Source: an uncultured Bacteroidales bacterium (GTDB lineage Bacteria > Bacteroidota > Bacteroidia > Bacteroidales > Paludibacteraceae). From it: a stretch of DNA of 64,000 nt. Positions 11,391 through 25,000 of the stretch are shown one piece after another. A program made the position numbers and the translations under genes. Within the stretch, counting starts at the first letter, position 1, and each line of letters starts with the position of its first letter. The notes below the pieces were generated by a model. The model made no database searches, was not told the origin of the DNA, and saw only the letters and a program-made list of their open reading frames with translations. The stretch spans positions 37,667 to 101,666 of the forward strand of contig ONJT01000003.1 of assembly GCA_900318245.1 (NCBI GenBank). The letters run 5' to 3'.

Positions 11391-11432
11391 AATCGTTTCA
11401 ATTTTAATTGTTAAACATCCTTCTCTCATTCA

Positions 11433-13124
11433 TCATTTCTCATCCGCAAATACTGCGTAGAATGTTATATTTCCCGTAATAGTTGGTGAAGTGCCATTGA
11501 ACAAATCTCCCGGCGCACTATCACTTGCCCAACCGGAGTTTGATGTCCATCCCATGAAAGTACTTCCCGTACACTCACCCGGCACACTCGGATTCGCCGG
11601 AGTAGAAGTCGTCGTGTTGTACGACACATTAGAAGTCGTCTGATATGTAGAACCATTCACACTCCAAGTTACGGTACATGGTTTGTAAAACTCCGCAATA
11701 ACAGTAACTGCTGCTGATGGTGTCCCAGTTAGCGAGGTGCTTGCGCTTGTCGCAGATGCAATGCTCGTTCCAGAAGCCGTTCCATATTTCCATGTCTTGA
11801 ATACATAATGTGTACTACCTGCACTGGCAGTTAATGTACGTCCGGAAGCAGAAGCAGTAACTCCTGCATCAGCTATGGTCGTTCCGTCCTCGTCTTTCTT
11901 TTGAACAGTTACAGAATAGGCAGTGACTGTACTAGTAGCAGTTTTGGTTATTCCGCCTTCCGTATAGGATGCCGTGATGGTATTACTACCAGCGACCAAA
12001 ACTGTTGTTGGTGTCCATGAGGTAGAAGCAGAGACATTAGCTGTCGTCGCATCAGAATAGGTAGCTGTTACAACCGCCCCCGTCTTGCTGAATGTTTCAC
12101 CAACAAGATATTTTGTCGTTGTAGGTTGCATTGTAATTGCAATCGAAGACAAGGTCTTCGCTGCCGCACAAGATGGATTGGTTAGATAATAATACGAACC
12201 ACTTGTTTGCCTAAAAACTGCATACAATGTGCCTCCATCACTAGGCATGGCTCCTGCTGTGGAACTATTATAAGTTGTGCCAGGAGAAGCTGCGGGTGTC
12301 TCTAGTGCACCAACACGCCATCCCGAATATGTACCGTCCAAATCGCCGGGACAACTGTGTCCGCTGACTGCCATATCCTCCGTCAGATCAGCTTTTACTT
12401 TATTACTATATGTGACATATCCTCCTTCTCCGTCAGGCACTTTTAAGGTATACTTTGGCTCAGCAACAGTGTAGGTTATTATAATATCATCTATGATACG
12501 ATTAGCCGTAGAACTTCCTCCTCTACTTATTCTAACATATACATTAACATTATTGTTTGTTAAATTCTGCGAAACCTCGGTAAAAGTTCCTTTTGTGGTA
12601 GAAGCGATATTGAACGTATTTACTGTTGTCCAATTAGAGCCATCTGTTGACGTTTGAATATAGACATTAGTGCTTGTTGTATTTGTACTTGCTTTAGTAG
12701 CATAATATTTAATATTTGTTATGGTTCCTGCAATTTTTTCATTGGTCTTAATATAAAAACCTGTTGCGCTAAATTGGCATGACTTTGAACCGGATGCTGT
12801 GTGATTGTAGGTTGTATTCTGCGAACCAGAGTTAACAGTCCATGCAGAATTATTTGGAAACGTTCCACTTCCTTCAAAAGTAAGTTCCATCGTTTCTCCC
12901 CACACATTTCCGCTGCCGAGAGTTAAAAGCATTACGAGCATTGCGGCACATCTCACTACCGAATGCAGTTTTCCACTTGGTTGCCAGCAGGTCCCAAAGG
13001 GTGCTGAATAGGTGCTGAATGGGTGCTCAATGGTTGCTTCACCCGAGATCACTCCAACCTCCTTTCTCTGTGAGTCCGCTACCCGACTCCACAGAGTTTT
13101 CAAATAAGTAATTAAGTTTTTCAT
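11433..13124 (-). CDS. Large secreted repeat protein without C-terminal tag
   Basis: This 563-aa protein begins MKNLITYLKTLW. A ~45-residue spacer containing near-repeats of GTGCTGAAT-type DNA follows, and only then a hydrophobic signal ending GSGNVWGE (near residue 77). A carbohydrate-binding-like beta domain comes next (TSTDGSNWTTV). Then comes a bacterial Ig-like unit (LSSIAITMQPTTTKYLVG) and an InlB-type repeat ending ITFYAVFADEK at the stop. The Ig-like plus repeat part is paralogous to the middle of the 2553-aa protein across the island, and the N-terminal leader is shared with it too. It lacks the secretion tag carried by the next gene, which starts 42 bases downstream. It may be a shortened version of its 2553-aa counterpart. 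Function is unknown; adhesion is a plausible guess. Confidence 0.85.
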   Translation of the reverse strand: MKNLITYLKTLWSRVADSQRKEVGVISGEATIEHPFSTYSAPFGTCWQPSGKLHSVVRCAAMLVMLLTLGSGNVWGETMELTFEGSGTFPNNSAWTVNSGSQNTTYNHTASGSKSCQFSATGFYIKTNEKIAGTITNIKYYATKASTNTTSTNVYIQTSTDGSNWTTVNTFNIASTTKGTFTEVSQNLTNNNVNVYVRISRGGSSTANRIIDDIIITYTVAEPKYTLKVPDGEGGYVTYSNKVKADLTEDMAVSGHSCPGDLDGTYSGWRVGALETPAASPGTTYNSSTAGAMPSDGGTLYAVFRQTSGSYYYLTNPSCAAAKTLSSIAITMQPTTTKYLVGETFSKTGAVVTATYSDATTANVSASTSWTPTTVLVAGSNTITASYTEGGITKTATSTVTAYSVTVQKKDEDGTTIADAGVTASASGRTLTASAGSTHYVFKTWKYGTASGTSIASATSASTSLTGTPSAAVTVIAEFYKPCTVTWSVNGSTYQTTSNVSYNTTTSTPANPSVPGECTGSTFMGWTSNSGWASDSAPGDLFNGTSPTITGNITFYAVFADEK

Positions 13125-13140
13125 AATGTATTTGGTTTTT

Positions 13141-13198
13141 TTATATTATTCCTTATTTATATCTACACACGCGTGTGCGTGTGGTTATATTTTGTGAG
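13141..13198 (-). promoter_or_regulatory. Outer left copy of inverted upstream element
   Basis: Read on the minus strand, 58 bases just upstream of the 13124 gene match 56 bases upstream of the 22096 gene with about two differences. The element has a palindromic alternating purine-pyrimidine block (CACACGCGTGTG), then TAGATATAAATAAGGAATAATAT. No TAnnTTTG box is visible, so either it uses another sigma factor or the promoter is of a different kind. Confidence 0.75.
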
Positions 13199-13297
13199 TA
13201 CAGGGCAACCCAATAGCCTATACCCGTTTTTTTATGTTGACATAATGAAATAACTAAATATTGAAATGACAAACTTGGCAAAGTTGACAAACTTTAC

Positions 13298-13353
13298 TTG
13301 GTCCTTTTTCCAGTCCAGCTTGTTCCTTTTTTTCTCAGCTTGTTCCTTTTTTC
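13298..13353 (-). repeat. Three copies of the 15-bp AAAAAAGGAACARGC repeat, 20-bp period
   Basis: On the minus strand AAAAAAGGAACAAGC occurs at about 13319-13333 and 13339-13353. A degenerate copy starts near 13298, so the spacing is 20-21 bases. It belongs to the same family as the larger cluster at 16136-17160. Apart from this, 13199-13427 holds no gene that I can see. Confidence 0.75.
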
Positions 13354-13427
13354 AACTACTTTTTTAGTTTATTTCAGTATGTCAAAGATCAATCTGTAAT
13401 TTGTTTCAAGTGTCTTACAGTAACACT

Positions 13428-13465
13428 ATTCCTTATTTATCTTGCGCGTATGCGTATACGCGATA
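13428..13465 (-). promoter_or_regulatory. Inner left copy of palindrome + ATAAATA element
   Basis: On the minus strand TATCGCG starts an alternating purine-pyrimidine block with 7-bp arms (CGCGTAT/ATACGCG), and ATAAATAAGGAATA follows. The distance from TATCGCG to ATAAATA is 25 bases, the same as in the copy at 21577. It lies just past the end of the RES-type gene, pointing out of the island. Confidence 0.6.
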
Positions 13466-13466
13466 A

Positions 13467-14555
13467 CTATTCTTTGATTCTTCGATACAAATTGGGATTT
13501 TCGAATCGTTTTTCCATCGCCCAAAATATTGTATTTTCGTAATCTCCATCAGGAAATGGCAGATAACCTCTCAACGAGTCCTTATTATCTTCGTACTCTG
13601 TTGTTGTAGGTTCTGTTAGTTCGAACATGCCACATAGTTTCGAACAATACCCTTCATCCTTAACATCATAGACAGGAATAGCAATGTTTTCAATCCTTCT
13701 GTAATTATTTCCGGTAATTTCCTTAAAATCATCTTCTTGTTGCGTGGTGTCATAAATCACCCCATCCAACTTTCTGTTACAAACATTATCCTTAACTATA
13801 AGGTGCATAACTAATTGCGGAAACACATATTCCGGGATATATACACCAGCCTTACTCGTTGTTTTAAATGAACAAGCAATAATTAATGGAAGTATTTGTA
13901 AATATTTCTTCAAACTATCTTCATTTTCAAATTCTCTTTTCAAGCGTAGATCTAACAGATTCAATGTATGCCCGTCGCATAATTTAAAGGCCGATATCAT
14001 CAAGTTGTTTATACTTGCTCTTCTCATTTCTTCCCAACATACGTATATGGAACATCCCAAATACAAGCAAGGCATACCTATCATACTATATCTGTATGGT
14101 TTTATCAAGTCGCGTCGGTTGAATGGAATATGAAACAACTCCTCCCTTGTAAATGTCTTATGCGTATCATTGCCTTCTACCCGTGAGCGCATGCGGTAGT
14201 ATACATTATTTATCCCACTTGCTGTCTCAGAATGTGTTGACCAATTCTCTTTGTATTGATCCCACCAGTTATTTTCGATGCATTTAGCTATTGTCCCATT
14301 ATTGTAGTCATTATACGTATTAAGAATATTATTACAAAGATTACTAATTTCAGCAATAAAAGTACTATCAATACTGACGTTAAGAGGACGTTCTAACAAA
14401 AGGTCATTGTTTTTGCCCGTGCCATCATATGAAATTCCATTAGAGATATATTCCTGATATTTTTCAAATGCAGTATGCAGACGCGTAGCAAAGGGCTTAC
14501 TTTCAACCTTTGTCCACTCCTCAATTTGTGATATTAAATCTTTATAATTACGCAT
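13467..14555 (-). CDS. RES-domain-like protein
   Basis: This is a 362-aa cytosolic protein with no signal peptide or membrane helix. Residues 119-180 show the hallmarks of the RES fold. There is an early RMRSR (121-125), then FHIPFNRRDL, then PYRYSMIGMPCLYLG and YVCWEE (170-176). RES proteins known as toxins act on NAD+, using conserved Arg, Tyr, Glu and Ser; Arg, Tyr, Ser and Glu are all present here. At 362 aa it is much longer than toxin-only RES proteins (~150-230 aa). It has an N-terminal ~110-residue region of unknown role, and no Xre-type antitoxin gene sits beside it. It is therefore better regarded as a RES-fold effector in an accessory or defence setting than as a classic toxin-antitoxin pair. 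It is last in a minus-strand run and, unlike its two neighbours, lacks the ACACGAT leader. Confidence 0.65.
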   Translation of the reverse strand: MRNYKDLISQIEEWTKVESKPFATRLHTAFEKYQEYISNGISYDGTGKNNDLLLERPLNVSIDSTFIAEISNLCNNILNTYNDYNNGTIAKCIENNWWDQYKENWSTHSETASGINNVYYRMRSRVEGNDTHKTFTREELFHIPFNRRDLIKPYRYSMIGMPCLYLGCSIYVCWEEMRRASINNLMISAFKLCDGHTLNLLDLRLKREFENEDSLKKYLQILPLIIACSFKTTSKAGVYIPEYVFPQLVMHLIVKDNVCNRKLDGVIYDTTQQEDDFKEITGNNYRRIENIAIPVYDVKDEGYCSKLCGMFELTEPTTTEYEDNKDSLRGYLPFPDGDYENTIFWAMEKRFENPNLYRRIKE

Positions 14556-14679
14556 TCCTACTAATTATTCTGTTGTAGTGTTACTATTAGGGTAGAATAC
14601 TAAAAAAACTGTTTGTGTATTTAGTTTATTTTAATTGGTGATTAAAGGATAATTTAATGTCCTTTAACCGTGAATAGCC

Positions 14680-15312
14680 CTACATAATATGCACAGGCCA
14701 TAATTTTTCTACAAATCTATAATTATCCATAATTATGAACTTTTCTACACCAATAGCGTTGATTAGATTTTGAGGGAAACGCGCAACGTCATTATACTCC
14801 TTTACTACAACAAATTCCACATCATCTAATAAGAATGGATAATCATGAGGGACGCGCCATTCTCGCTCATGACTAAAATCAACAGTCGGGAAATATTGCC
14901 CTTTCATGTGATTCGGACGATATTGCGGAGAGAACGGAGTTATAAAAGGCCATACATGCTTATCAAATTGTCTTTTAGACATTTGTTTTTTTAGATGGTC
15001 TGGACGCACATAGTATGCAGGTCCACCATGCTTAACAAAAACAGATTTTTTAGAGAAACCTACACCATATGGAGAGTATTGCTGTGTGTGCGCCAATAAA
15101 CTAGACCATGGACATTCTGTCATACACACAGCATGTGCACCGGTCCATGGCATGGTAGACGCATTAATAATTTGGTTATTCAAGATTGATACCAAACGGT
15201 CAAAAGCACTCATCTGAGCAAAAGGTCTGGCAGGATTATCCTCTGCTGCAGAACATAATGCTCCGTCTTTAGTAAAATGCGCTAAATAATTCGAAAAATC
15301 CGGTCTGTTCAT
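14680..15312 (-). CDS. AbiGi/DUF2971-like accessory protein
   Basis: The protein is 210 aa and cytosolic. The opening YLAHFTKDGAL, the middle AVCMTECPWSSLL, YSPYGVGFSKKSVF and the later SHEREWRVPHDYPFL are the characteristic string of the AbiGi/DUF2971-like families. Those families have a compact fold often found in phage-defence and mobile regions; a relation to ADP-ribosyltransferase folds has been suggested, but I cannot confirm it here. ATG 15312 is preceded by a leader of the ACACGAT type (15322-15345), about 10 bases upstream of the start. The P-loop gene lies upstream on the same strand with a ~65-base gap. The exact family is uncertain. Confidence 0.6.
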   Translation of the reverse strand: MNRPDFSNYLAHFTKDGALCSAAEDNPARPFAQMSAFDRLVSILNNQIINASTMPWTGAHAVCMTECPWSSLLAHTQQYSPYGVGFSKKSVFVKHGGPAYYVRPDHLKKQMSKRQFDKHVWPFITPFSPQYRPNHMKGQYFPTVDFSHEREWRVPHDYPFLLDDVEFVVVKEYNDVARFPQNLINAIGVEKFIIMDNYRFVEKLWPVHIM

Positions 15313-15321
15313 AATCTTTTC

Positions 15322-15345
15322 GTCCTTTTATCGTGTTGACTTCAC
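15322..15345 (-). promoter_or_regulatory. Leader element with ACACGAT core (copy E)
   Basis: On the minus strand GTC-AACACGATAAAAG-GAC can fold as a 3-bp stem, and GAAAAGATT then leads into ATG 15312. Core, position and the AAAAGATT-ATG tail match copy C at 19833. Confidence 0.55.
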
Positions 15346-15378
15346 GTTTAAAGTGTTAATTATGATATTATATTTGAG

Positions 15379-15918
15379 TTAACAATTTTCTTTGATATCT
15401 ATGAATACTTCAATTGCTATTCGTTGTGCATCTTCAACTCGTTCGTCTGCACTTGGTTTCCAGTTCTTACAATACCAACGGTAAGTGTGCATCCGATAGT
15501 TGTCAAGAATATATTTGCGTACACCGCCGGGCGTTCGGTTGTATCTGGAGCAACAAATAACATGGTCTACTTCGTTAAGTTCCGCCCAGTGCATATTGTT
15601 CTTGAATGTAATAAAGTCATCTTCGTTAAATGGGTTTTCTTCGTCAATATCACAGCCCAAAGCGTCTCCTGCACTAAAAATAGCTATCTTCTTCCCTTTA
15701 TATTCAAATAGTGCTCGGAAATCTGAAAATAACATCATTGCCGATGTCGCATGACTTGTTCTAATCTGTTCCAATACTTCAGAGAATGTGGGTCTATTTA
15801 TTAATGACTTCGGCACAAAATCAATCTCTCGTCCCGCATTCTTCAGTAGGTTATACACCAACCAAGCGGTATGTGTCTTCCCGCAATTCTGTACTCCATA
15901 TATTACAAATAATGCCAT
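15379..15918 (-). CDS. Small P-loop NTPase-like protein, accessory
   Basis: I place the start at ATG 15918, giving 179 aa. An in-frame GTG at 15948 would translate the conserved leader itself, so it is unlikely. Near the N-terminus GVQNCGKT (residues 8-15) is a good Walker A loop, in the context LFVIYGVQNCGKTHTAW. Further features are a DFRALFEYKGKKIAIFSAGD segment (a Walker-B-like strand, KIAIFSAGD) and VDHVICCSRYNR. It looks like a minimal nucleotide-binding protein of a type found in defence or mobile islands. I recognise no named family. Leader copy A precedes it, and it is first in the minus-strand run leading to the AbiGi-like and RES-like genes. Confidence 0.65.
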   Translation of the reverse strand: MALFVIYGVQNCGKTHTAWLVYNLLKNAGREIDFVPKSLINRPTFSEVLEQIRTSHATSAMMLFSDFRALFEYKGKKIAIFSAGDALGCDIDEENPFNEDDFITFKNNMHWAELNEVDHVICCSRYNRTPGGVRKYILDNYRMHTYRWYCKNWKPSADERVEDAQRIAIEVFIDIKENC

Positions 15919-15925
15919 ACTCTTT

Positions 15926-15953
15926 TCCCCCTCATCCGTGTCGGGCACAACTA
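15926..15953 (-). promoter_or_regulatory. Leader element with ACACGGAT core (copy A)
   Basis: On the minus strand GTGCCCGACACGGATGAGGG sits 8-30 bases before ATG 15918, with CCC/GGG able to pair. Over more than 30 bases it is almost identical to copy B (18905), although it lies on the opposite strand upstream of an unrelated gene. Confidence 0.75.
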
Positions 15954-16135
15954 TTATTTGTTTTCGTTACAATTAATATACTTCCGTTTTTATTTCGTTT
16001 TCGGTCCATTTAAGGACCAATGTAGGACAATTATAGGACCTATCGCGTATCCTGCACCACCTTATATATAATATGTATATATCCCGTGATTTTCACTCTT
16101 TCATCCTTTCAATCCTTCATCCTGATATTCCTTTA

Positions 16136-16190
16136 CTTGTTCCTTTTTTACTAAGCTTGTTCCTTTTTTACTCAGCCTGTTCCTTTTTTC
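16136..16190 (-). repeat. Three 15-bp repeats at exact 20-bp spacing
   Basis: AAAAAAGGAACARGC on the minus strand occurs at 16136-16150, 16156-16170 and 16176-16190. A 20-bp period, near two helical turns, would put the copies on one face of the DNA, as in iterons or operator arrays. Apart from repeats, 15954-16398 contains no gene that I can see; aggac triplets and a TATCGCGTAT motif lie at 16012-16050. Confidence 0.8.
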
Positions 16191-16213
16191 AACTCTTTCC
16201 CCACACTTTCACT

Positions 16214-16431
16214 CTCCCCGCATAGCCTGTTCCTTTTTTCATTTCATCCCCCCTCATTCTCTAACTCACTCATTCACTAACTCCCTTGTATAGCCTGTTC
16301 CTTTTTTGACCCGCTCACTCTGCCCAACATTCCCTCACCCCGCACAGCCTGTTCCTTTTTTCATTTCATCTCCCCTCATTCTCTAACTCACTCATTCATT
16401 AACTCCCTTGTATAGCCTGTTCCTTTTTTGA
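16214..16431. repeat. 122-bp tandem duplication carrying four more 15-bp repeats
   Basis: A block of about 95 bases at 16214-16309 recurs at 16336-16431, an offset of exactly 122 for both internal landmarks (16226 to 16348, 16294 to 16416). Each block carries two AAAAAAGGAACAGGC copies 68 bases apart. The second block supplies the last ten codons and the stop of the winged-helix gene. Confidence 0.8.
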
Positions 16432-16689
16432 AAGTTCCTCCAAATACTCTAAACCATCTGCCGTCAATCGGTACGTCTGTTCCGGTATACTTGGGTGCCC
16501 GGGGCATTGCATGGTTACCAATCCTCTCGCTCTGGCCGGCTTCATGTAGTTGTCATAGAAGTTTCTCCGCGATTCTTGTCTCAATCCCAAAGCCGCCATC
16601 AACTCACGTCTCGGATGTACTCTTTTCCCCATTACCATCACCAATCTCTGCACCCTCTCCTCTATTTTAACTTTCGTATTCATTCTCAA
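16399..16689 (-). CDS. Stand-alone winged-helix DNA-binding protein (Fic C-terminal type)
   Basis: The protein is 96 aa. RRELMAALGLRQESRRNFYD, then YMKPARARGL, then QTYRLTADGLEYLE (residues ~28-83) is the winged-helix pattern that I know from the C-terminal part of Bacteroidetes Fic-family proteins. Here it stands alone, without the Fic domain. It could be a free DNA-binding protein or a remnant of a longer gene. The protein ends in KKEQAIQGS, which is simply the 15-bp repeat read in frame, and another repeat lies directly upstream of its start (16691-16705). No promoter of the usual type was found. Given its place inside the repeat cluster, it is a natural candidate to bind those repeats; that is inference. 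Confidence 0.6.
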   Translation of the reverse strand: MRMNTKVKIEERVQRLVMVMGKRVHPRRELMAALGLRQESRRNFYDNYMKPARARGLVTMQCPGHPSIPEQTYRLTADGLEYLEELSKKEQAIQGS

Positions 16690-16690
16690 G

Positions 16691-16727
16691 CCTGTTCCTT
16701 TTTTTGCTTTAGCTTGTTCCTTTTCGG
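16691..16727 (-). repeat. Two 15-bp repeats upstream of the winged-helix gene
   Basis: Copies of AAAAAAGGAACARGC lie at 16691-16705 and 16713-16727 (the second ends in CGAAAAGGAACA), with a decayed copy from about 16734. Confidence 0.7.
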
Positions 16728-16734
16728 ACTAAGC

Positions 16735-17746
16735 TTGTGTCTGTTTCCAACTCAACTTCGAGGTTCTTTCCTTCCAATCGTTAGTTATTAGTTATATCTT
16801 CGTTCGTTATTCGTTAGATATTCAGCTACCCACAGACTACTGTCACCTGCCCCATTCAACGCAAAAATTGGCTTTGCACTTTTTGCACTTTCTGCATTTT
16901 TTTGCGAAAAATGTCGTGTCGCTTTGTCGCTTTGTCGCTTTCTTTTTTTTTGTGCGTGAGACTGTTGAAACTTTGAGACTTTCGCACATATCTCTCTCAT
17001 TTACAAGCCCTTACAAAGTCTCATCAAAGTTTCAAAGTTTCAAAGTTCCATCTTTTTTCTTCTTTTCAATAGCGACATAGCGACATTATTTATGTTCGTT
17101 TCTCGGTCTTGTGTCGGTCTTCTCCCGCTCTTCGGTCGGTGGCACCTTGTTCCTTTTTTGACATCATGAATCCATAAATAAAAAAGCGACAATTCACTTT
17201 CGGAATAATCGCTTTCACAATCAGCCAGTTGGTAAATCGCATTTTTCGATTATTCCTTATGGAATCACTATGTCAAAGATCTCTTGCTTATTGGCTATTA
17301 CGGATGATAGTATTTGCATTTGCGGAAATAATGCCCAAAATAAACGGTCTTTTAATTTGAGCCTATCTCTCATCCTTTCGCTCTTGCCCATAAATTATCT
17401 TTTTTTCGCGTATATATGTGCGATTGCGAGATTACAAAACAGCCCATTCGACTGCAAAATTACACAAAAGTTTCGATATATACAAATATATTTTGTATAT
17501 TTCTATCAAAAAAGTGATTTTCATCAATTATTCCACAAAATACACCATATTCGTCAATTTTTCCACATTTGCATGGCTCAAATTAAAGGACCGTTTTGTT
17601 TATACCAGCAATTGGGTATAAATCCGTAGATTAACGTGGGAGGAAGGTAGCCAGCCGACGGTCGTGCATACCAAGGAAAACACAAAAAATGAACGTTAAA
17701 GGAGACGAAACGATCTTTGAAGTATAGATATATGCGAAATTAGCAG
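16735..17746. other. About 1 kb without a convincing gene; microrepeats and one more 15-bp repeat
   Basis: The open frames here have no family resemblance and poor composition. What is visible is short tandem repetition (TTTTTGCAC, TTTGTCGC and AGTTTCAA units between 16870 and 17045), a further AAAAAAGGAACAAGG at 17146-17160 and AT-rich DNA to 17600. A short purine-rich stretch (GTGGGAGGAAGGTAGC near 17636) and a 12-codon frame at 17688 precede the invertase promoter. Confidence 0.5.
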
Positions 17747-17754
17747 TACCTTTG
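17747..17754 (+). promoter_or_regulatory. TACCTTTG -7 box before the invertase
   Basis: TACCTTTG lies 10 bases before ATG 17765, so the transcript would have almost no leader. No TTTG stands at the usual 20-base distance; the nearest is 27 bases upstream at 17716. It is therefore a weaker or regulated promoter call. Confidence 0.5.
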
Positions 17755-17764
17755 CGGAAAAAAT

Positions 17765-18373
17765 ATGAGGAGGTATGGTTATATTCGCGTGAGTAGCGAC
17801 AAACAAACAGTTGAGAACCAGCGGTTTGAGATCAATCAGTTTTGCCAACAGGAAGGATTGACTATTGACGGATGGATTGAAGAGACGGTTTCCGGCACCA
17901 GGACTTACACCCAGCGCCGGCTTGGAGAGTTGATACAACAGACAGGCGAAGGAGATATCATCATCTGCAGCGAGTTAAGCCGGCTGGGGCGCAACCTGTA
18001 TATGATTATGGAGATTCTCAGCAAGTGCATGAGTCGCGGCTGTCACGTATGGACCATCAAAGACGGCTATCGCCTGGGAGATGACATCCAGTCGAAAGTG
18101 CTGGCTTTTGCCTTTGGTCTCTCGGCAGAGATAGAGCGTAACCTCATCAGTCAACGAACCAAAGAGGCGTTAGCCCGCATGAAGGCGGAAGGCAAGCATC
18201 TCGGTCGTCCGGAAGGCAGAAAGACTTGCAAGAAAGCGCTCGCGCTCTATCCGCACGAAGCGTTTATTCTGCAAGAACTGGAACAGGGCACGCCTATACG
18301 GGAGATAGCCCGGAAGCTGCATTGCAGCCGCAACACGGTGAGTAACTACATTCAAGCGTATCTGAAAGAGTGA
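17765..18373 (+). CDS. Serine recombinase, Mpi-like DNA invertase
   Basis: This 202-aa protein has the small-invertase layout. The catalytic domain starts GYIRVSSDKQ with Ser10 as nucleophile. The ICSELSRLGRN block gives Arg73 and Arg76, and the long dimer helix contains FGLSAEIERNLISQRT (117-132). A C-terminal helix-turn-helix follows (TPIREIARKL-SRNTVSNYI, about 176-196). The wording VENQRFEI, MIMEIL, WTIKDGYRLGDDIQSKVLAF is that of the Bacteroides Mpi family. In B. fragilis, Mpi flips the promoters of capsule loci and other regions between inverted repeats. That makes it a candidate to act on the inverted elements bracketing this island, but its target cannot be read from the sequence. The final codons and stop fall at the start of a GTGAAAG microrepeat (18366-18405). 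Confidence 0.9.
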   Translation: MRRYGYIRVSSDKQTVENQRFEINQFCQQEGLTIDGWIEETVSGTRTYTQRRLGELIQQTGEGDIIICSELSRLGRNLYMIMEILSKCMSRGCHVWTIKDGYRLGDDIQSKVLAFAFGLSAEIERNLISQRTKEALARMKAEGKHLGRPEGRKTCKKALALYPHEAFILQELEQGTPIREIARKLHCSRNTVSNYIQAYLKE

Positions 18374-18642
18374 AAGGTGAAAGGGCGAAGGGTGAAAGAG
18401 TGAAAGAGCTCACACAATGATGTGCGAGAAGAGAAAGACGGGAAAAGAGAAGCGAATTGGCAAGGCATTGCCTCTAACTTGCCTCTGAATTGCCTCCGAT
18501 ATCTATTTTGTAAAGAGCATGTATTGAACAAGTTACAAATCATTGGAATTGGGGACATTTGATGGTAAGCAAAAATATTAAAAAGTATAGTTATCTCTCG
18601 AGAATGGACCGAGAATAGATCGGAAAAACATATAACCGTGAT
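18374..18642. other. Gene-free stretch with microrepeats after the invertase
   Basis: This stretch starts with GTGAAAG-like units (18370-18405), then TTGCCTC(T) units about 11 bases apart (18465-18495). No open frame resembles a known protein. With the relic described next it makes a ~570-base gap before the RhuM-like gene. Confidence 0.5.
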
Positions 18643-18782
18643 GCCGACACGATAAAAAAGGGCGAAAGTGCCAAGTAAAAAAATAGTCAAATATATAATA
18701 AGTAAAAGTGCGCACGGAAGAGTGCAAAAAAAAGATGGCAGAAGAAAAGAAAAATGATGATTGCTTAGTGTACTGCGTATAG
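18643..18782 (+). pseudogene. Two decayed leader copies and a 15-codon remnant starting MAEEKKN
   Basis: GCCGACACGATAAAAAAGGGC (bases 18643-18663) repeats the leader core with a possible GCC/GGC stem but has no gene behind it. At 18712-18725 GCAC-GGAAGA-GTGC is a second hairpin, followed by AAAAAAAAG and ATG 18735. The frame reads MAEEKKNDDCLVYCV and stops at 18782. Its first seven residues equal those of the membrane protein at 19862. I read this as remains of earlier genes that used the same leader. Confidence 0.5.
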
Positions 18783-18904
18783 AGATGGTGGTCCAATAGA
18801 GACATTTATAAATAAATTTAACATGACTCATCGAACCAACCATCGACTCAAAAGAGTCCAATCAATCATCTCAAAATGAACAAAAATACCAAAAATATAT
18901 AATA

Positions 18905-18930
18905 GTTGTGCCCTACACAGATGAGGGGGA
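18905..18930 (+). promoter_or_regulatory. Leader element with ACACAGAT core (copy B)
   Basis: GTTGTGCCCTACACAGATGA followed by GGGGG ends 11 bases before ATG 18941, with CCC/GGG able to pair. It matches copy A on the other strand over the whole block, including the preceding AATAGTTGTG. Confidence 0.75.
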
Positions 18931-18940
18931 AAGATAGAAG

Positions 18941-19810
18941 ATGGCAGAAGAGATGCAAACATATGGTCAAACAAACGAATCTGTAGTTATATACCAAAGC
19001 GCGGATAACGCGGTTCGTTTGGATGTGCAACTCGCCGAAGAAACGGTTTGGTTGAGCCAAAAGCAGATGGCACAATTGTTCGACACTACTCCACAGAACA
19101 TCACTCTGCATATAGGTAATGTTTATAAAGAGCAGGAACTAACTCAATCAGCAACATGTAAGGATTTCTTACAAGTTCAAATCGAGGGAGGAAAAGAGAA
19201 ACGTCGTTTAACCAAGTTCTATAACTTGGATGTGATTATCTCTGTAGGCTACCGAGTAAAGAGTAAAAGAGGTACCCAATTCCGCCAATGGGCGACAAAG
19301 GTGCTTAATCAATATATACGCCAGGGCTATGCGGTAAGCAATCGATTCGAGAAATTGGAGCAACGGATGACAAACGTAGAGAATCAAATCGAATCTTTTG
19401 TGCATGCTGCACTTCCTCCCAAAGAGGGAATCTTTGCGGACGGACAAATATATGATGCATATGAGTTTATTGAGCGTTTGATTAAGTCCGCAAAGAAATC
19501 GATTTTGCTGATAGACAATTACGTAGATGAGTCGGTATTGACAATGCTGAGCGGAAAAAACAAAGGAGTACAAGTGGATATTTATACCAAAGAGTTGTCG
19601 AATGCGCTGTTACTGGCACAAGACAAGTTTAACAGCCAATACGGAAACTTATCTCTCCATCAAACGAACCGCGTGCATGATCGGTTTATGATTATTGACA
19701 ACCAAACGATTTATCTCATCGGAGCATCATTAAAAGATGCGGGCAAACGGCTCTTTGCCTTCACCAAGATGAGCGCCACGCATATTGAGGAGCTAAAGAA
19801 ACTATTGTAA
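18941..19810 (+). CDS. RhuM-family protein with C-terminal PLD-like domain
   Basis: The protein is 289 aa. The N-terminal part (about 15-135) is the virulence-RhuM family: SVVIYQSADNAVRLDV, ETVWLSQKQMAQLFDTT, a helix-turn-helix-like segment, and YNLDVIISVGYRVKSKRGT with FRQWATKVL. The C-terminal part (about 165-289) has DAYEFIERLIKSAKKSILLI, DNYVDESVL (192-200) and VHDRFMIID (245-253). This resembles a single phospholipase-D-like half-site in which the usual HxK has become HxR. The family is common in mobile and defence islands and its biochemical role is not established; a DNA-binding regulator with a nuclease-like tail is one reading. It is preceded by leader copy B and is first in the plus-strand run B-C-D. 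Confidence 0.8.
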   Translation: MAEEMQTYGQTNESVVIYQSADNAVRLDVQLAEETVWLSQKQMAQLFDTTPQNITLHIGNVYKEQELTQSATCKDFLQVQIEGGKEKRRLTKFYNLDVIISVGYRVKSKRGTQFRQWATKVLNQYIRQGYAVSNRFEKLEQRMTNVENQIESFVHAALPPKEGIFADGQIYDAYEFIERLIKSAKKSILLIDNYVDESVLTMLSGKNKGVQVDIYTKELSNALLLAQDKFNSQYGNLSLHQTNRVHDRFMIIDNQTIYLIGASLKDAGKRLFAFTKMSATHIEELKKLL

Positions 19811-19832
19811 AAACTAATATCAAAAAAGTTGC

Positions 19833-19851
19833 GCCCGACACGAATGAGGGT
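19833..19851 (+). promoter_or_regulatory. Leader element with ACACGAAT core (copy C)
   Basis: GCCC-GACACGAATGA-GGGT can form a four-pair stem (one G-T). It begins 22 bases after the RhuM gene stop and ends 10 bases before ATG 19862, followed by AAAAAAGATT as in copy E. Confidence 0.7.
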
Positions 19852-19861
19852 AAAAAAGATT

Positions 19862-20515
19862 ATGGCAGAAGAAAAGAAAAATATAAATAATATGGAAAAC
19901 GAAATGACATTTGAAGAGCGGCAGTATCAACGGTTGATCAATGCTAGGAACTTCCACTATGAGAACTTTAATAAGTGGTCGTTGTATTTCTATGCCATTA
20001 TAGCGGCATTGTTCGCAGGTTATTATAGCTTGCGCGGACAAAATCAGCCCATTGATGAAATTATAAAATGGAGCATCCTTATTCTTGGCTATATAGTTAG
20101 CATGTGTTGCTATTTGTCTGGAAAAGGATACTACTACTGGGAAATTAATTGGATTAAGCTCATTATGCATTATGAGAAACAAGTTTTGCCTCTAAAGAAA
20201 GAGGAAAGTGTATATTCGATTTTTGCTAACGAGAAAGGGTTGAGTAACTATTGGCGCATTATAAAAGGAGCTAATATCTCATCCTCAAAATTATCATTAA
20301 TCGTGTCATTCTCTATTACATGCGCGTGGGCAATTATGATTGCTCTGCAATTTGTACCAGAAAAATGTTGTTGCTGCTGTCGTGCTCTCGCTATAATAGG
20401 AGTACTTGTAGCAACTTGGCTTTTATCAGCATTAGTCGGAAAGTGGCTTCATAGTGATTTGAAAAATCATGATGATTTGGAGCTTCCTTTAAAGGAAGAA
20501 AGAAAAAATATTTAA
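19862..20515 (+). CDS. Four-helix membrane protein, RipA-like (tentative)
   Basis: This is a 217-aa protein starting at ATG 19862; an earlier in-frame TTG would translate the leader. The N-terminal ~40 residues are polar and acidic (MAEEKKNINNMENEM), followed by YQRLINARNFHYENFNKWS. Hydrophobic helices lie near 41-56, 70-86, 146-164 and 184-202. An unusual run of five cysteines (169-173) sits in the loop before the last helix, and the C-terminus is charged. The FHYENFNKW segment and overall size recall proteins annotated as RipA-family octameric inner-membrane proteins, but this is from memory and tentative. The setting between a RhuM protein and a PIN nuclease, under the same leader, suggests an accessory or defence role. 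Confidence 0.6.
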   Translation: MAEEKKNINNMENEMTFEERQYQRLINARNFHYENFNKWSLYFYAIIAALFAGYYSLRGQNQPIDEIIKWSILILGYIVSMCCYLSGKGYYYWEINWIKLIMHYEKQVLPLKKEESVYSIFANEKGLSNYWRIIKGANISSSKLSLIVSFSITCAWAIMIALQFVPEKCCCCCRALAIIGVLVATWLLSALVGKWLHSDLKNHDDLELPLKEERKNI

Positions 20516-20533
20516 TTTAACCTTAAAAGTGAG

Positions 20534-20552
20534 GCCTGACACGAATACAGGC
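20534..20552 (+). promoter_or_regulatory. Leader element with ACACGAAT core (copy D), best hairpin
   Basis: GCCT-GACACGAATAC-AGGC forms a perfect four-pair stem. Copies A-C have CCC/GGG at this place, so both sides changed together. It sits 18 bases after the preceding stop and 10 bases before ATG 20563. Confidence 0.7.
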
Positions 20553-20562
20553 GGGATGTGCT

Positions 20563-21522
20563 ATGATTGCAACAATTTTTGACACTAATGCTTACCTGAA
20601 TATGGTAAGCCAAAAAGATTTTGAAGATGTGCGGGTTTTCGTACAACAACTTAAAGATGCTGAGTCAGCGCAGGGATACATGGCATATATATATCCTACT
20701 GTAGCGCAAGAATTACTCTCTCATCTTCTTGATAGACAACCTATTTGTAAACCCCAGTATAGCTATACGAAAGCATGTATGGCAATATATGCTCATTGTT
20801 CCGACAAAAAACAAAACAACTTTCGCATGGCACCTTTACATGAACTACATATTGCTCATGCTTATTGGGGAATAGATGTTAAACCATACATAGAGACTCA
20901 AACATCATTTTGTAATTTGTTGTTTGAAATAGAACAACAACCGAATTGTAGAACAGTTGCTAAATACAAAAAACAACTAAAGCAAATTAAGGATTTTACA
21001 CATGAAGCTGAAAGGGAATATGTTGCTAAAATTGAAGAAATTAAAGAAACAATATTAACGCAACACCCTCAATATAAAGATTGGGCATCTTTCTTGGCTG
21101 ATCCAAAGAATCGGAATAAAGTCACAGGTTATGTCAGTAGCCCACAGTTAAAAAAACTTCTGGCCTCTGCTATGATTTATGCCGTGGCATTAGATTTACA
21201 TAAAAAAGGTTACCCATTACCGAATGAACAGCAAATAGAGCAAGCCGTAAACATATATTTACAGGATTGCGCAGCGTCGCTAGAATTACAGCAGATGCTA
21301 TTTAGTCACTGGGATGATCCGAATTTTGATTTTGGGCGTCCAGATCGAGTAAACACAATTTGGGACTTAAAGATTTTGAGTAGCGTTGGGCATAAGTTAA
21401 ATAATCAGGATGAGATATTATTAGTCACGAGTGATAAAAAGATGATTGAAGCAGCTCAACGTACAATGCCTACAGGTAAAATTTGTACATATACGGATTA
21501 TTTATCAAAGTTAGGACTTTAA
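20563..21522 (+). CDS. PIN-domain nuclease-like protein, long form
   Basis: This 319-aa protein opens MIATIFDTNAYLNMV, the typical first strand of a PIN domain with Asp7. YPTVAQELLSHLLD supplies the next acidic position. The C-terminal DLKILSSVGHKL and ILLVTSDKKMIEAAQRTM give the remaining acidic residues of a metal-dependent RNase site. PIN toxins are usually ~130 aa; here a ~170-residue helical, charged insertion (about 125-270) separates the two halves of the fold, so it is not a standard VapC, and no VapB-type antitoxin is adjacent. It is last in the B-C-D run and is followed by a strong hairpin. The most likely role is RNA cleavage in a defence or stress response; the domain call is good and the role is inferred. 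Confidence 0.75.
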   Translation: MIATIFDTNAYLNMVSQKDFEDVRVFVQQLKDAESAQGYMAYIYPTVAQELLSHLLDRQPICKPQYSYTKACMAIYAHCSDKKQNNFRMAPLHELHIAHAYWGIDVKPYIETQTSFCNLLFEIEQQPNCRTVAKYKKQLKQIKDFTHEAEREYVAKIEEIKETILTQHPQYKDWASFLADPKNRNKVTGYVSSPQLKKLLASAMIYAVALDLHKKGYPLPNEQQIEQAVNIYLQDCAASLELQQMLFSHWDDPNFDFGRPDRVNTIWDLKILSSVGHKLNNQDEILLVTSDKKMIEAAQRTMPTGKICTYTDYLSKLGL

Positions 21523-21538
21523 TAACATCCTTTTCGAT

Positions 21539-21562
21539 CAAGGGATATTGGTTTATCCCTTG
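21539..21562 (+). terminator. Stem-loop after the PIN gene
   Basis: CAAGGGATA-TTGGTT-TATCCCTTG is a perfect 9-bp stem 16 bases after the stop at 21522. No long T-run follows, so it may rather protect the 3' end or terminate weakly. Confidence 0.6.
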
Positions 21563-21576
21563 GTCACAAAATACAA

Positions 21577-21608
21577 TATCGCGCATACACGTGCGTACAT
21601 TATAAATA
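21577..21608 (+). promoter_or_regulatory. Inner right copy of palindrome + ATAAATA element
   Basis: TATCGCGCATACACGTGCGT followed by ATAAATA 25 bases from its start mirrors, in opposite orientation, the element at 13428-13465. The palindromic core is CACGTG. It points out of the island, towards the plus-strand giant operon. Confidence 0.5.
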
Positions 21609-21619
21609 GTATATAATAC

Positions 21620-22026
21620 AAAATACAATGAAAACGAAAACTTAGCACTGTTTCGACCTTGTGGAAAAACGCTAAATGTATTGGGAAGTTGTGCTATCCT
21701 CTAATAAAAAGGGTAATGATTTTAATTATGATGATTATGATAGCAATATACAACATAAATTCTAATCTGAATATGATTAGTGGCAAGATGATAGAAATTA
21801 CGCAAGTGATTAACAAGGGTATTTCAGAGATGAAACCAATATTAACGGAGAATTGGCGTGGCGTGCGTATGGGGAATAACGGCACATTTCGACAATCCAA
21901 TTTAGCGAATACCACTCGGCAAGGTGATATGCACGCTCCCTACAAGGGATGCCAATTCTCCACCATATAGTGCAAGGCGAAACACTATAAAAATCGTCAG
22001 GGTAGAGCGCGGTGAAACGCCATCTG
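21620..22026. other. Gap before the plus-strand giant operon, no convincing gene
   Basis: Frames of 70-100 codons exist on both strands, but their composition is poor and they lack family resemblance. Nothing here matches the corresponding left-side gap at 13199-13427 apart from the bordering elements. Confidence 0.4.
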
Positions 22027-22082
22027 CTCACAAAATATAACAACACACACGCGTGTGTAGATATAAATAAGGAATAATATAA
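22027..22082 (+). promoter_or_regulatory. Outer right copy of inverted upstream element
   Basis: These 56 bases are nearly identical to the reverse complement of 13141-13198. They contain ACACACGCGTGTGT (a 14-bp palindrome) and TAGATATAAATAAGGAATAA. The element ends 13 bases before ATG 22096. No TAnnTTTG box is present. Confidence 0.75.
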
Positions 22083-22095
22083 AAATCAAAATAAC

Positions 22096-25000
22096 ATGAA
22101 AAATTTATTTACTTATTTGAAGACTTTGTGGGGGGCGTGGGGAAACCTACAGAGTAAGGACGTAAGACATGACCGTCGGTTGACCGTCGGCTCACCGTCG
22201 GGATTGGACGCAAAATGGAAGCAAAATCCATTCATGCGTTTTGCAGTAGTGTTAACCTTAATCTTCACCATCGGCATCGGAAATGTGTGGGGAGCAGCGG
22301 ATTACATTATTCCAAAATTATATTTGTCCTCAAAAAACACAGTATCTGGTGGTACGGGATGGAATTTTACAAGTGCGGCGGCAAATAATGCCAAGACTGA
22401 TTATTGGAAAATGGTCAGTAGTAGTTCTGTAGTCACATCTCCGGCTTTTGATATTTCTGGTTACACTAGTGTTACCATATCAATCAAATGGGGAAGTTAT
22501 AACACATTTAATGCAACAAAATGTAATGCAACAGTTAAAATTTCAACCGCAGCGGGTACGTGGACTACCTTAGGGACAACCGGCTTAACGGGTGCTAATA
22601 CGAGCGGCAAAGTATGTACTTTCGAAAATGTAGAAGAGTCATCCTCCTATTCAAGTGCTCAAATCCAGATTTCCACTCCAAGTGCAGGTGATGATGTCGG
22701 AGGTCGGTTGTATTATGTAGAAATCAAAGGAGAAGCCGCCGGTTCTTGTGATGCTTCGCCTACGGTTGGTAATGCTGCCTACAATGGCGCACTTGTATAT
22801 TCCACGACGCCTATGACAGTTCCTATTACTTGTCCATCCATAGGTGCCGGATCAAGTTGCGAAATTAAAGATTACGGTTTTGTGTGGAAAGCAGGTGGTA
22901 ATCCTACTATCTCGAACAACAAGACACAAATAGGTACAGATAACCACTCAACAGCATTTAACGGCAATATTTCCGGTACGTTTGCCGCAGGAACGACTTA
23001 TTATGTCAAAGCATATGCGATAAACAACGGAGACAACACCATACTAAGTTCAAGTGCCTATAGTTTTACACCTCGCAGCATAACTTTTAACTCCAACGGA
23101 GGAAGTTCCGTAAGCACCATTTTGGTTATTAGTGGCAAAGCAGCCAGTCAACCGGCAGATCCGACAAAGGATGGTTACATCTTTGGCGGTTGGTACACAG
23201 ATTCCGGGCTTGGTACTGCAGTTAATTGGTCTTCTACTATAACCTCAAACAAAACATATTATGCTAAATGGATAGCTGAACCAACGATTACAATCAGCGA
23301 AACTTCGCGTGCTTTCGGTGACCGAAAAGTGAATGGTGGACCTTACACAATGACCTTTAATGTCAGCGGTGCTAATTTAACAAATAATATAAGTTTGTCG
23401 ATAAGTGGTACAAATGCAGGAATGTTTTCTGTAACACCAAGTTCGCTTACTCAATCGGCAGGTTCTGTTTCTTCGACCGAGATAACTGTTTCCTACTCGC
23501 CGACAAGTGCAGGTTCACATAGTGCCACAATCAATATAACCAGTAGCGGTGCAACGAGCAAGACGGTTGCTTTGAGCGGTACCGGTAAATGGGAAGTAAC
23601 CTGGAGCAATAACGGTGCAACGTCAACCACGTTGGTGGAGAATAGTACAAAACCGACATTCCCGAGCACGCCGAGCAGTTGCGACGCCACCAGTACAACA
23701 TTCATTGGTTGGGCGACGGCTGAATGGGATGGCAAGATTGCGAGCCTCGCGGGCAAAACGGTTCATACCTCCAACAGTACAATGTCCAACATCACTGCCA
23801 ACGGAACTACATTCTATGCAGTGTTTGCAAAACAAAGTGGAAGCGGGGATCCGACTTGGGTTCAAACTACAAGTGTAGCAGTGGATGATGTGGTTGTGAT
23901 AGCTGAGATTGATCATGTTGCAGATGGTAAAACCGGAAAAGAATTAGCTGGATGGGGAGGTTCAACTTATGGAACAGGAGCTGATTATAAGACCAATCCT
24001 GCTGGTACTATAACATGGACTGTTGTGACTGGTTATAACAGTACTGGTGTTGCTTTCAAAAATAGTAGTAATAAATATTTGTATTGGAGCAGTAGTAATA
24101 GTTTGGATGTCAATAGCACACTTTCCGCAAATAGTTCTTGGAGTGTATCAACAGAAAGTTCCAGAGCTAAAATTCAAAATAATTCTACAACTACTCGCGT
24201 TATATGTTGGAATGAAGCGAATCCCCGATTTGCTGCATATGATAGCAAGAGCCATGGAGATGCAACGTCTTCAGGTGCGTCTACTAAATTCTACTATCCA
24301 GTATTTTATAAGCAGACACCAGGTTATACCTATTCCGATTATTTGACTACTTGCTGCACCGCACTTGGTTCAATTAATGGGTCGATTACGTTGACCAATG
24401 ACGGTTGCGGGGCTGGAGAGTTGAAAGCTACGTGGAAGATGACCGCCACAACGGGTATCGCTTCGCAGACCTTAAAGGTTTATGACGAAAATCTGGATGA
24501 GGTAATAGCAAAACGAATTACCGATATTACTGCTTCAACCTCTAACCAGACAAAGACCATTTCCGGTTTAAATCCCTGTAAAGAATACTATGTTACTATA
24601 GAAAATGTTAGTAGCGGTGGCGAGTATTGTGCACCTGGTGACCCGTGGGAATCTGATGTTGTAACAACTCTTGGCTATACGTTAAGTGTTACAAAATCTA
24701 ATTGTTCGATAACTTCGGGTTCAGAACCTGCACGAATCTGCAATAATGTGTCAGTAACTTATGCGGCAGCGACAGGTTATGCGTTGCCGACTTCCATAAC
24801 TGTTACTAACGCTGGAGCACAGAATACCGGTTGGACATGGAATAGCGGTACAGGCGTATTGACGATTAACAAAGCCAATGTGACCGGTAATGTGGAAGTT
24901 ACAATTACCCCGACTAGTGTACCACCTGTCATTGGCACAAATCCGGCAGATGCGAGTTACTATGTAGGAGACGCTCCTACGGCTTTGTCGGTAACCGCTA

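Follow-up and report, generated by a model that had tools for sequence, protein, structure and literature searches.

What does a short sequence do that stands, in similar copies, before genes that are themselves unrelated? This question is raised by an island in the genome of an uncultured Bacteroidales bacterium of the Paludibacteraceae, available as a 2.26-Mb draft (GenBank assembly GCA_900318245.1). The window, i.e., the whole stretch of DNA analyzed here, covers 64,000 nucleotides of this genome (G000:C16:37667-101666), and coordinates below refer to it unless another locus is named. In a preliminary description of the window, a common element, here called the leader, had been placed before five accessory genes (A to E) and interpreted either as a translational switch bound by an RNA-binding factor or as a boundary at which genes are exchanged while the leader is kept. 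Our analyses indicate that the leader is probably a structured RNA in the 5' untranslated region (UTR) that controls ribosome entry and that, in this genus, it is also an exchange joint. Bacteroidales, which are dominant in the gut, appear to carry this one portable element before more than 100 unrelated accessory gene clusters.

The leader family and its distribution

The leader is about 30 bases long and lies immediately 5' of start codons. It consists of a GTTGYG flank followed by a 3-4 bp stem around an 11-12 nt loop, GACACGNATNA. In the window, leaders A, B, C and D share the form TTARAA-GTTGYG-CCC-GACACGNATNA-GGG (class I). They were scored with a covariance model, R1, whose training copies include A, C and D and exclude B. 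Leader A (15928..15957, minus strand, before a P-loop-like gene) scored 43.3 bits (E 2.8e-10), leader C (19822..19851, plus strand, before an 8xMP gene) 45.6 bits (E 6.1e-11), and leader D (20523..20552, plus strand, stem GCCT/AGGC) 33.8 bits (E 1.5e-7). Leader B (18899..18928, plus strand, before a RhuM/PLD gene) was recovered from outside the training set with 29.3 bits (E 2.8e-6), and the next-best match in the window had an E value of 0.45. Leader E (15322..15346, minus strand, CGTGAAGTCAACACGATAAAAGGAC), which precedes an AbiGi-like gene, belongs to a second, weaker class with the approximate form CGTGNNGYCNACACGATAAAAGG (class II), for which it was the source of the pattern. Thus, all five copies of the preliminary description were found where it had placed them, give or take a few bases, and the likeness of A and B on opposite strands was recovered as a 46-nt inverted pair (87% complementary). 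The view of the five copies as one element held for A to D, which form one family, and not for E, which groups with a further copy, F1.

Two copies, F1 and F2, had not been described before. F1 (18637..18661, plus strand), which lacks an intact gene, has three mismatches to the class II pattern and is 84% identical to E over 25 nt. F2 (18700..18725, plus strand), read and aligned by eye, is leader-like and is followed by a decayed open reading frame (ORF) from 18735 that opens with ATGGCAGAAGAAAAGAAAAAT, as gene C does; a leader resembling F2 precedes gene A in the related genome G564, and the letters of leader E recur exactly at G564:C15. A first version of a joint E/F1 pattern had zero matches in the window's own genome. 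An improved class II pattern gave 15 matches in 13 of 178 genus genomes, and because the reversed control reached 10 at up to three mismatches, we trust only the five matches with 0-1 mismatch (window E, G564, G538, G455 and G516), each of which shares a contig with class I leaders. Forms intermediate between the two classes, e.g., GTTGTGCCCGACACGGTAAAAGGG, occur in loci L083 and L111.

The bare core, ACACGAAT, was rejected as a signal, with 42 genome-wide matches compared with 37 for the reversed pattern; likewise, a loose scan of the window with two mismatches gave 258 matches, fewer than the 283.6 found in shuffles. A 23-base form with up to three mismatches matched 39 times, in 25 of 150 family genomes, and its reversed control did not match at all. 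The short core being at background and the long form above it, significance rests on the longer element. The exact 23-base form was found in at least 118 genome-contig stretches, labeled as Bacteroidales, member genera, or just Bacteroidetes/Bacteroidia, apart from four possibly misbinned contigs, of which two carry the label Lachnospiraceae, one Erysipelotrichaceae and one Flavobacteriaceae. Three viral contigs also bear the leader. In viral contigs L143 and L144 a start codon follows it after 8 and 12 nt, and in the latter, a phage contig, it stands inside an operon-like run, directly 5' of a gene. With R1, 30 of 41 genus genomes had matches at E<=1e-3, 67 in total, in a search of 150 candidates per genome with strict filters that weak leaders can escape; in the window's own genome (150 of 757 candidates scored) the four matches were A, B, C and D. 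An Rfam scan of positions 13000-23000 with E values up to 5 found nothing over A, C, D or E, and over B a weak opposite-strand GHRLOS match, far below cut-off, with a 15-base overlap. In the open-licence literature we found no paper with the leader letters, and searches on the topic and on DUF805 likewise listed nothing on such a leader.

When the genes behind the leaders were tabulated, as the preliminary description had proposed, they proved unrelated. From 153 copies, we obtained 144 downstream ORFs of at least 25 codons (including a few genes fetched twice under two locus identifiers), which formed 110 clusters at BLAST E<=1e-4. Pfam was applied to 127 of these ORFs, excluding near-repeats and very short or cut ORFs, and identified 47 families at E<=0.001, none of them in more than three ORFs. 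The 25 families listed of these 47 include WG repeats, DUF6567, T9SS sorting domains, lipocalin-like, RhuM and GmrSD, and a MreB/FtsA-type family is the sole housekeeping-like one among them. PADLOC yielded 55 families, each of the 25 listed matching one member, and NCBIfam 43 families, with two BSAP5i-type members among those listed. Lipoprotein-like starts were seen in 61 of the 144 ORFs by a crude count. A check for leaders before ordinary housekeeping genes agreed with this picture: in the own genome, R1 matched the four island copies, and the order-wide families listed include a single housekeeping-like one.

Position and pairing of the leader

In searches that did not force an ATG, this codon follows the stem by 7-10 nt in 119 of the 127 exact copies and by 8 or 9 nt in 100 of them; if the first ATG only is counted, 96 of the 127 fall at 7-10 nt. 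In the window, the ATG follows the end of the stem by 9 nt at E, 10 nt at A, 13 nt at B, and 11 nt at both C and D. In line with the claim that plus-strand copies start within about 20 bases of the previous stop, the conserved GTTG/GTG of C and D begins 17 and 13 nt, respectively, past that codon; B has no intact gene shortly upstream.

Pairing is more fairly judged from searches in which the stem was left unspecified than from a stem-aware sample. These patterns required the ATG to follow the stem by 5-10 nt (loop 11); 108 of 110 matches were entered, two present in both lists were dropped, and the 106 distinct matches came from 17 of 294 order genomes and 72 of 358 family genomes. A complete stem of three pairs is formed by 102 of the 106 (loop 11 or 12, G-U allowed): CCC/GGG in 88, CAC/GTG in 11, and CTC/GAG, TCC/GGA and TCC/GGG (one G-U) in one each, so that 14 paired matches have a 5' stem other than CCC. 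The four incompletely paired matches, all counted, comprise three chance-like ones and a real-looking leader with a broken pair (G445). By eye, the window adds two further paired variants, in D (CCT/AGG) and E (GTC/GAC). The stem-aware sample contained 55 copies (53 of 156 leaders plus two window copies; misaligned loop-12 leaders were excluded), and its selection was limited to four 5' stems and four 3' stems, freely combined. In this sample, every cell pairs (100%), the covariation score is matched by none of 500 shuffles, and the paired fraction drops to 7-62% in slid versions. The covariation for which the preliminary description had called is thus present, with compensated changes at all three pairs. 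Since the stems pair with compensated variants, we interpret the leader as an RNA hairpin and not as a mere DNA motif. With the flank and the loop start left free, GTTG was found in 52 of 52 matches and GAC in 46 of 52; judged by these letters, the unpaired parts of the leader are under strong constraint.

Single-stranded parts that are nearly invariant, near-fixed spacing, and the leader placed directly before a gene within the L144 operon-like run would also suit a site for pairing with, or recruitment of, a constant RNA (rRNA or small RNA), i.e., an alternative to the Shine-Dalgarno sequence that needs no regulatory protein. We consider this somewhat unlikely, as few genes per genome bear the leader and the stem would compete with such pairing. 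Pairing of GTTGYGC with 16S rRNA was set aside, because a 7-base match in 1.5 kb is expected by chance.

Upstream of the leaders, TAnnTTTG promoter boxes occurred 40 times within 150 nt, compared with 11 times in reversed sequence, and 12 of them lie 31-40 nt before GTTG. A DUF805b RNA (RF02914) was observed directly 5' of the leader in L042, L051, L070, L076 and L108, i.e., in five of 18 loci chosen for recurring upstream strings, and the two may belong to one 5' UTR.

Gene exchange at the leaders

Comparison of strains, which the preliminary description had suggested for its cassette boundary, revealed that genes have been exchanged at leaders A, B and C. The protein of gene B is 98.9-100% identical in L083, L109 and L111, which appear to be assemblies G487, G539 and G538; one of these loci with a nearly unchanged RhuM unit is labeled Paludibacteraceae and two are labeled uncultured Bacteroidales. 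At the DNA level the unit is 97-98% identical, and the match, from 18890-18920 to 19837-19860, ends in, or at most 10 bp from, leaders B and C. In G479 and G560, the unit is 87-90% identical and the match extends from 18874 to 19812-19837, ending within approximately 30 bp of the leaders. L083 has a different next gene, and its match to the window continues through GTTGYGCCCGACACG and halts there. In L111 and L172, half a leader remains after the RhuM gene, forming a scar in which GTTGTGCYCG is joined to GGAGAGAG.

At leader A, homology blocks of other genomes stop. G510 has gene A (93%) with nearly the same leader and other DNA upstream, and in G541 sequence is retained on both sides, at 90-94% upstream of leader A and at 97% in the far flank 13202-13390, while the three genes of the left array have given way to an ORF of 71 codons and a ParE-like toxin of 100 codons (Pfam E 6e-4, below cut-off). 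The reverse was seen in G564, where a 95% identical block includes gene A behind a leader of another type. Hence, the idea that genes are exchanged and the leader is kept describes the swaps at A, B and C, but not the case of G564.

We entered 23 homology blocks by hand from a partial list (at least approximately 85% identity and 250 bp; shorter ones, e.g., in G590 and G580, were omitted). Among their 46 ends, 16 lie within 30 bp of a leader, compared with 3.2 expected. Because several blocks share history, we rely on the count with shared ends merged, in which 9 of 30 distinct ends fall within this distance (leader territory 6.5%, p ~8e-5). The other 30 of the 46 ends lie elsewhere, and some of them bound the recombinase and the repeat-rich region 16292-17112. 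Headers longer than the leader also recur before different genes, as 48-52 nt blocks in three copies in Prevotella pectinovora (L094) and as a 104-nt header in three copies in L111.

These joints could mean that the leader acts first of all in DNA, as a recombination site with a role like that of integron attC, in which case a recombinase would move single genes and the RNA features would be secondary. Block ends that fall in leaders, the half-leader scar after RhuM in L111 and L172, and the toxin-antitoxin-like unit marked by a leader are all in keeping with this possibility, and a folded single-strand site would covary too. It is nevertheless unlikely in our estimation. The gap to the start codon is near-fixed throughout the order, the serine recombinase of the island adjoins inverted repeats of its own that are unlike the leader by eye, and most copies are single (101 of 122 matched sequences, in pieces of up to 8 kb with few exceptions). 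In addition, a crude and insensitive motif scan of 160 loci for tyrosine recombinases gave one doubtful match and nothing convincing; the same scan missed the serine recombinase of L109 that was seen by tblastn. A transcription-factor or promoter element acting at the DNA level is highly improbable: its invariant blocks 5' of genes and the 122 of 159 copies without a recognized upstream promoter box would fit, but the stem changes are compensated, the boxes, where found, lie upstream of the leader, and the leader follows the previous stop by 13-24 nt in the window (C, D) and L144.

Decayed or split RhuM copies were observed beside leaders in L250 (2451-4593) and L253 (8763-9337). In L247 (1050), L245 (5598), L246 (17154) and L109 (6754), leaders without a gene are followed by hairpin-like GATAGTGCAGATGCGGCAC, a combination that is perhaps the form of an empty unit.

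An invertible promoter between two arrays

The leader-gene units of the island form two divergent arrays, and between these lies a serine recombinase (PF00239, Pfam; 17765..18373, plus strand). Adjacent to it is an invertible segment of 265 bp (17337..17601) bounded by 27-nt inverted repeats (17337-17363 and 17575-17601). Inside the segment, a promoter-like TTTG-N20-TAATTTTG (17455..17490, minus strand) is aimed at the left array. In the window and in G588 and G559, the promoter box faces away from the recombinase, and in G564 it faces the other way, toward the recombinase. G516 has a different segment with similar repeats, and its box likewise points toward the recombinase. Thus, the features of Mpi-type promoters were all found, i.e., inverted repeats, a promoter between them, an adjacent serine recombinase, and both orientations (in different strains). 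Neither the recombinase nor the invertible promoter was part of the preliminary description.

Among ten comparison stretches, the recombinase is 86.5-99.5% identical in G564, G588, G559 and G516 and 75% identical in G545, and more distant copies, at ~70-75% DNA identity, are common across the genus. R1 leaders occur near it in G564, G588, G516 and G545; the G559 stretch had none at E<=0.5.

Proposed function and observations against it

In the interpretation that we favor, a 5' UTR hairpin that is also an exchange joint, the leader would set ribosome entry at accessory genes, and it would most likely be bound by a putative factor that acts in trans and is shared across Bacteroidales. Shine-Dalgarno sequences are reported to be generally absent from Bacteroidetes (PMC3155529), and the leader offers a way to ask how ribosomes are recruited to mRNAs in such bacteria. 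Because the same header precedes unrelated genes, it could double as a short homology for gene exchange, presumably by homologous recombination. The moving unit in this genus would then extend from the end of a leader through the gene to the start of the next leader. The invertible promoter would transcribe either the left or the right array and thereby switch expression. Should the leader prove to be a control element, a single factor could determine the output of a large part of the accessory gene pool. The leader also provides a sequence handle for accessory and defence genes that lack a known family. A broader and distinctly speculative proposal is a gene capture system of Bacteroidales, in which one hairpin would be both a DNA exchange site and an RNA translation start and an invertible promoter would choose the array; a captured gene would then be readable at once.

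Several observations weigh against the favored interpretation. With regard to the element itself, the R1 scan of the window missed E, F1 and F2; the spacings of 9-13 nt in the window are looser than the order-wide mode; and nine of the 153 copies lack an ORF of 25 codons (two run off the contig end, one has a short ORF, and six have none). The covariation is one-sided, as CAC/GTG accounts for 11 of the 14 alternative stems and another of the 14 needs a G-U pair. Six folded examples gave z-scores from -0.45 to +0.43, so the hairpin is weak alone, although modest stability of a lone hairpin is compatible with a site that needs a partner. With regard to expression, a TAnnTTTG box was seen in just 37 of 159 upstream regions, and transcription through the leader is therefore assumed for most copies. 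In G541, the toxin pair behind the leader looks, by eye, as if it had a promoter of its own, and a role in translation alone does not account for this. Finally, among ten comparison stretches chosen for matching the window (L245-L254), the recombinase is missing in five (L245, L250, L251, L252 and L254), four of these five bear numerous leaders at E<=1e-5, and L249 has the recombinase without R1 leaders.

Comparison with known systems

Global translational regulators of the CsrA/RsmE type bind hairpin operators, and these operators resemble the leader in having a conserved loop, a stem kept as pairing, and a location near the start codon. The leader differs from them in its loop, its largely Bacteroidales distribution, its accessory genes and a factor that is putative. 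The cis-regulatory RNAs of Bacteroidetes in Rfam (e.g., DUF805b, RF02914) are likewise short, structured and 5' of Bacteroidales genes; however, no Rfam family covers the leader in the scanned stretches, and the leader precedes 110 ORF clusters.

Integron cassettes are also accessory genes, including a toxin-antitoxin-like pair in the leader units, that are exchanged at a repeated hairpin. Integron attC sites carry a GTTRRRY box and R'' and R' boxes and are served by the recombinase IntI. In contrast, GTTGYGC of the leader breaks the GTTRRRY box, the 13-17 nt from a gene end to leader D or C leave no room for attC, the spacing to the start codon is near-fixed, and our crude scan found no IntI-like recombinase. 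Mpi-type invertible promoters share the arrangement described above for the island, whose promoter differs in its position between two divergent leader-gene arrays.

The closest published array system is rAID, in which accessory genes form co-oriented arrays with conserved intergenic sequence, as here, and are associated with a tyrosine recombinase and orphan immunity genes (PMC12247911). Near the leaders, the crude and insensitive scan gave no convincing tyrosine recombinase, and the listed families behind the leaders are mostly not immunity families, which speaks mildly against rAID; the intergenic motif of rAID may still be the same as the leader.

Genes and repeats of the island

The left array ends with a gene of 362 codons (13467..14555, minus strand) that has no Pfam family and lies in the 95% identical G564 block. 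Gene E (14680..15312, minus strand) was assigned by Pfam to the AbiGi-like family (PF10899), and gene A (15379..15918, minus strand; 179 aa, opening with MALFVIYGVQNCGKT) is P-loop-like by eye. In the right array, gene B (18941..19810, plus strand) belongs to the RhuM family in Pfam and has a weak PLD domain, gene C (19862..20515, plus strand) is an 8xMP gene (PF24838, Pfam), and gene D (20563..21522, plus strand; 319 aa) has weak Pfam matches only (DUF6038 and iHKD). Of the names given to these genes earlier, AbiGi and RhuM were therefore supported, the PLD match fell below cut-off, and the labels PIN (D) and P-loop (A) found no Pfam confirmation; gene C, previously called RipA-like, is 8xMP in Pfam.

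The DNA between leader A and the recombinase (16100-17160) contains CTGTTCCTTTTTT many times (read on the minus strand, AAAAAAGGAACAG), and the same repeat stands behind leaders without genes in L102 and L111. In L245 (3962-9129), six leaders are arranged as two divergent groups of three. The window recombinase has no match there, and a ParE-like toxin (below the Pfam cut-off) lies among the leaders. Very long ORFs flank the island of the window (1941-11429, 3162 codons; 22096-29757, 2553 codons), and ORFs opening with MKNLxTYLKxLW or MKKLNELQSYLTRLRG were seen near the islands in L246, L247, L248, L249 and L252.

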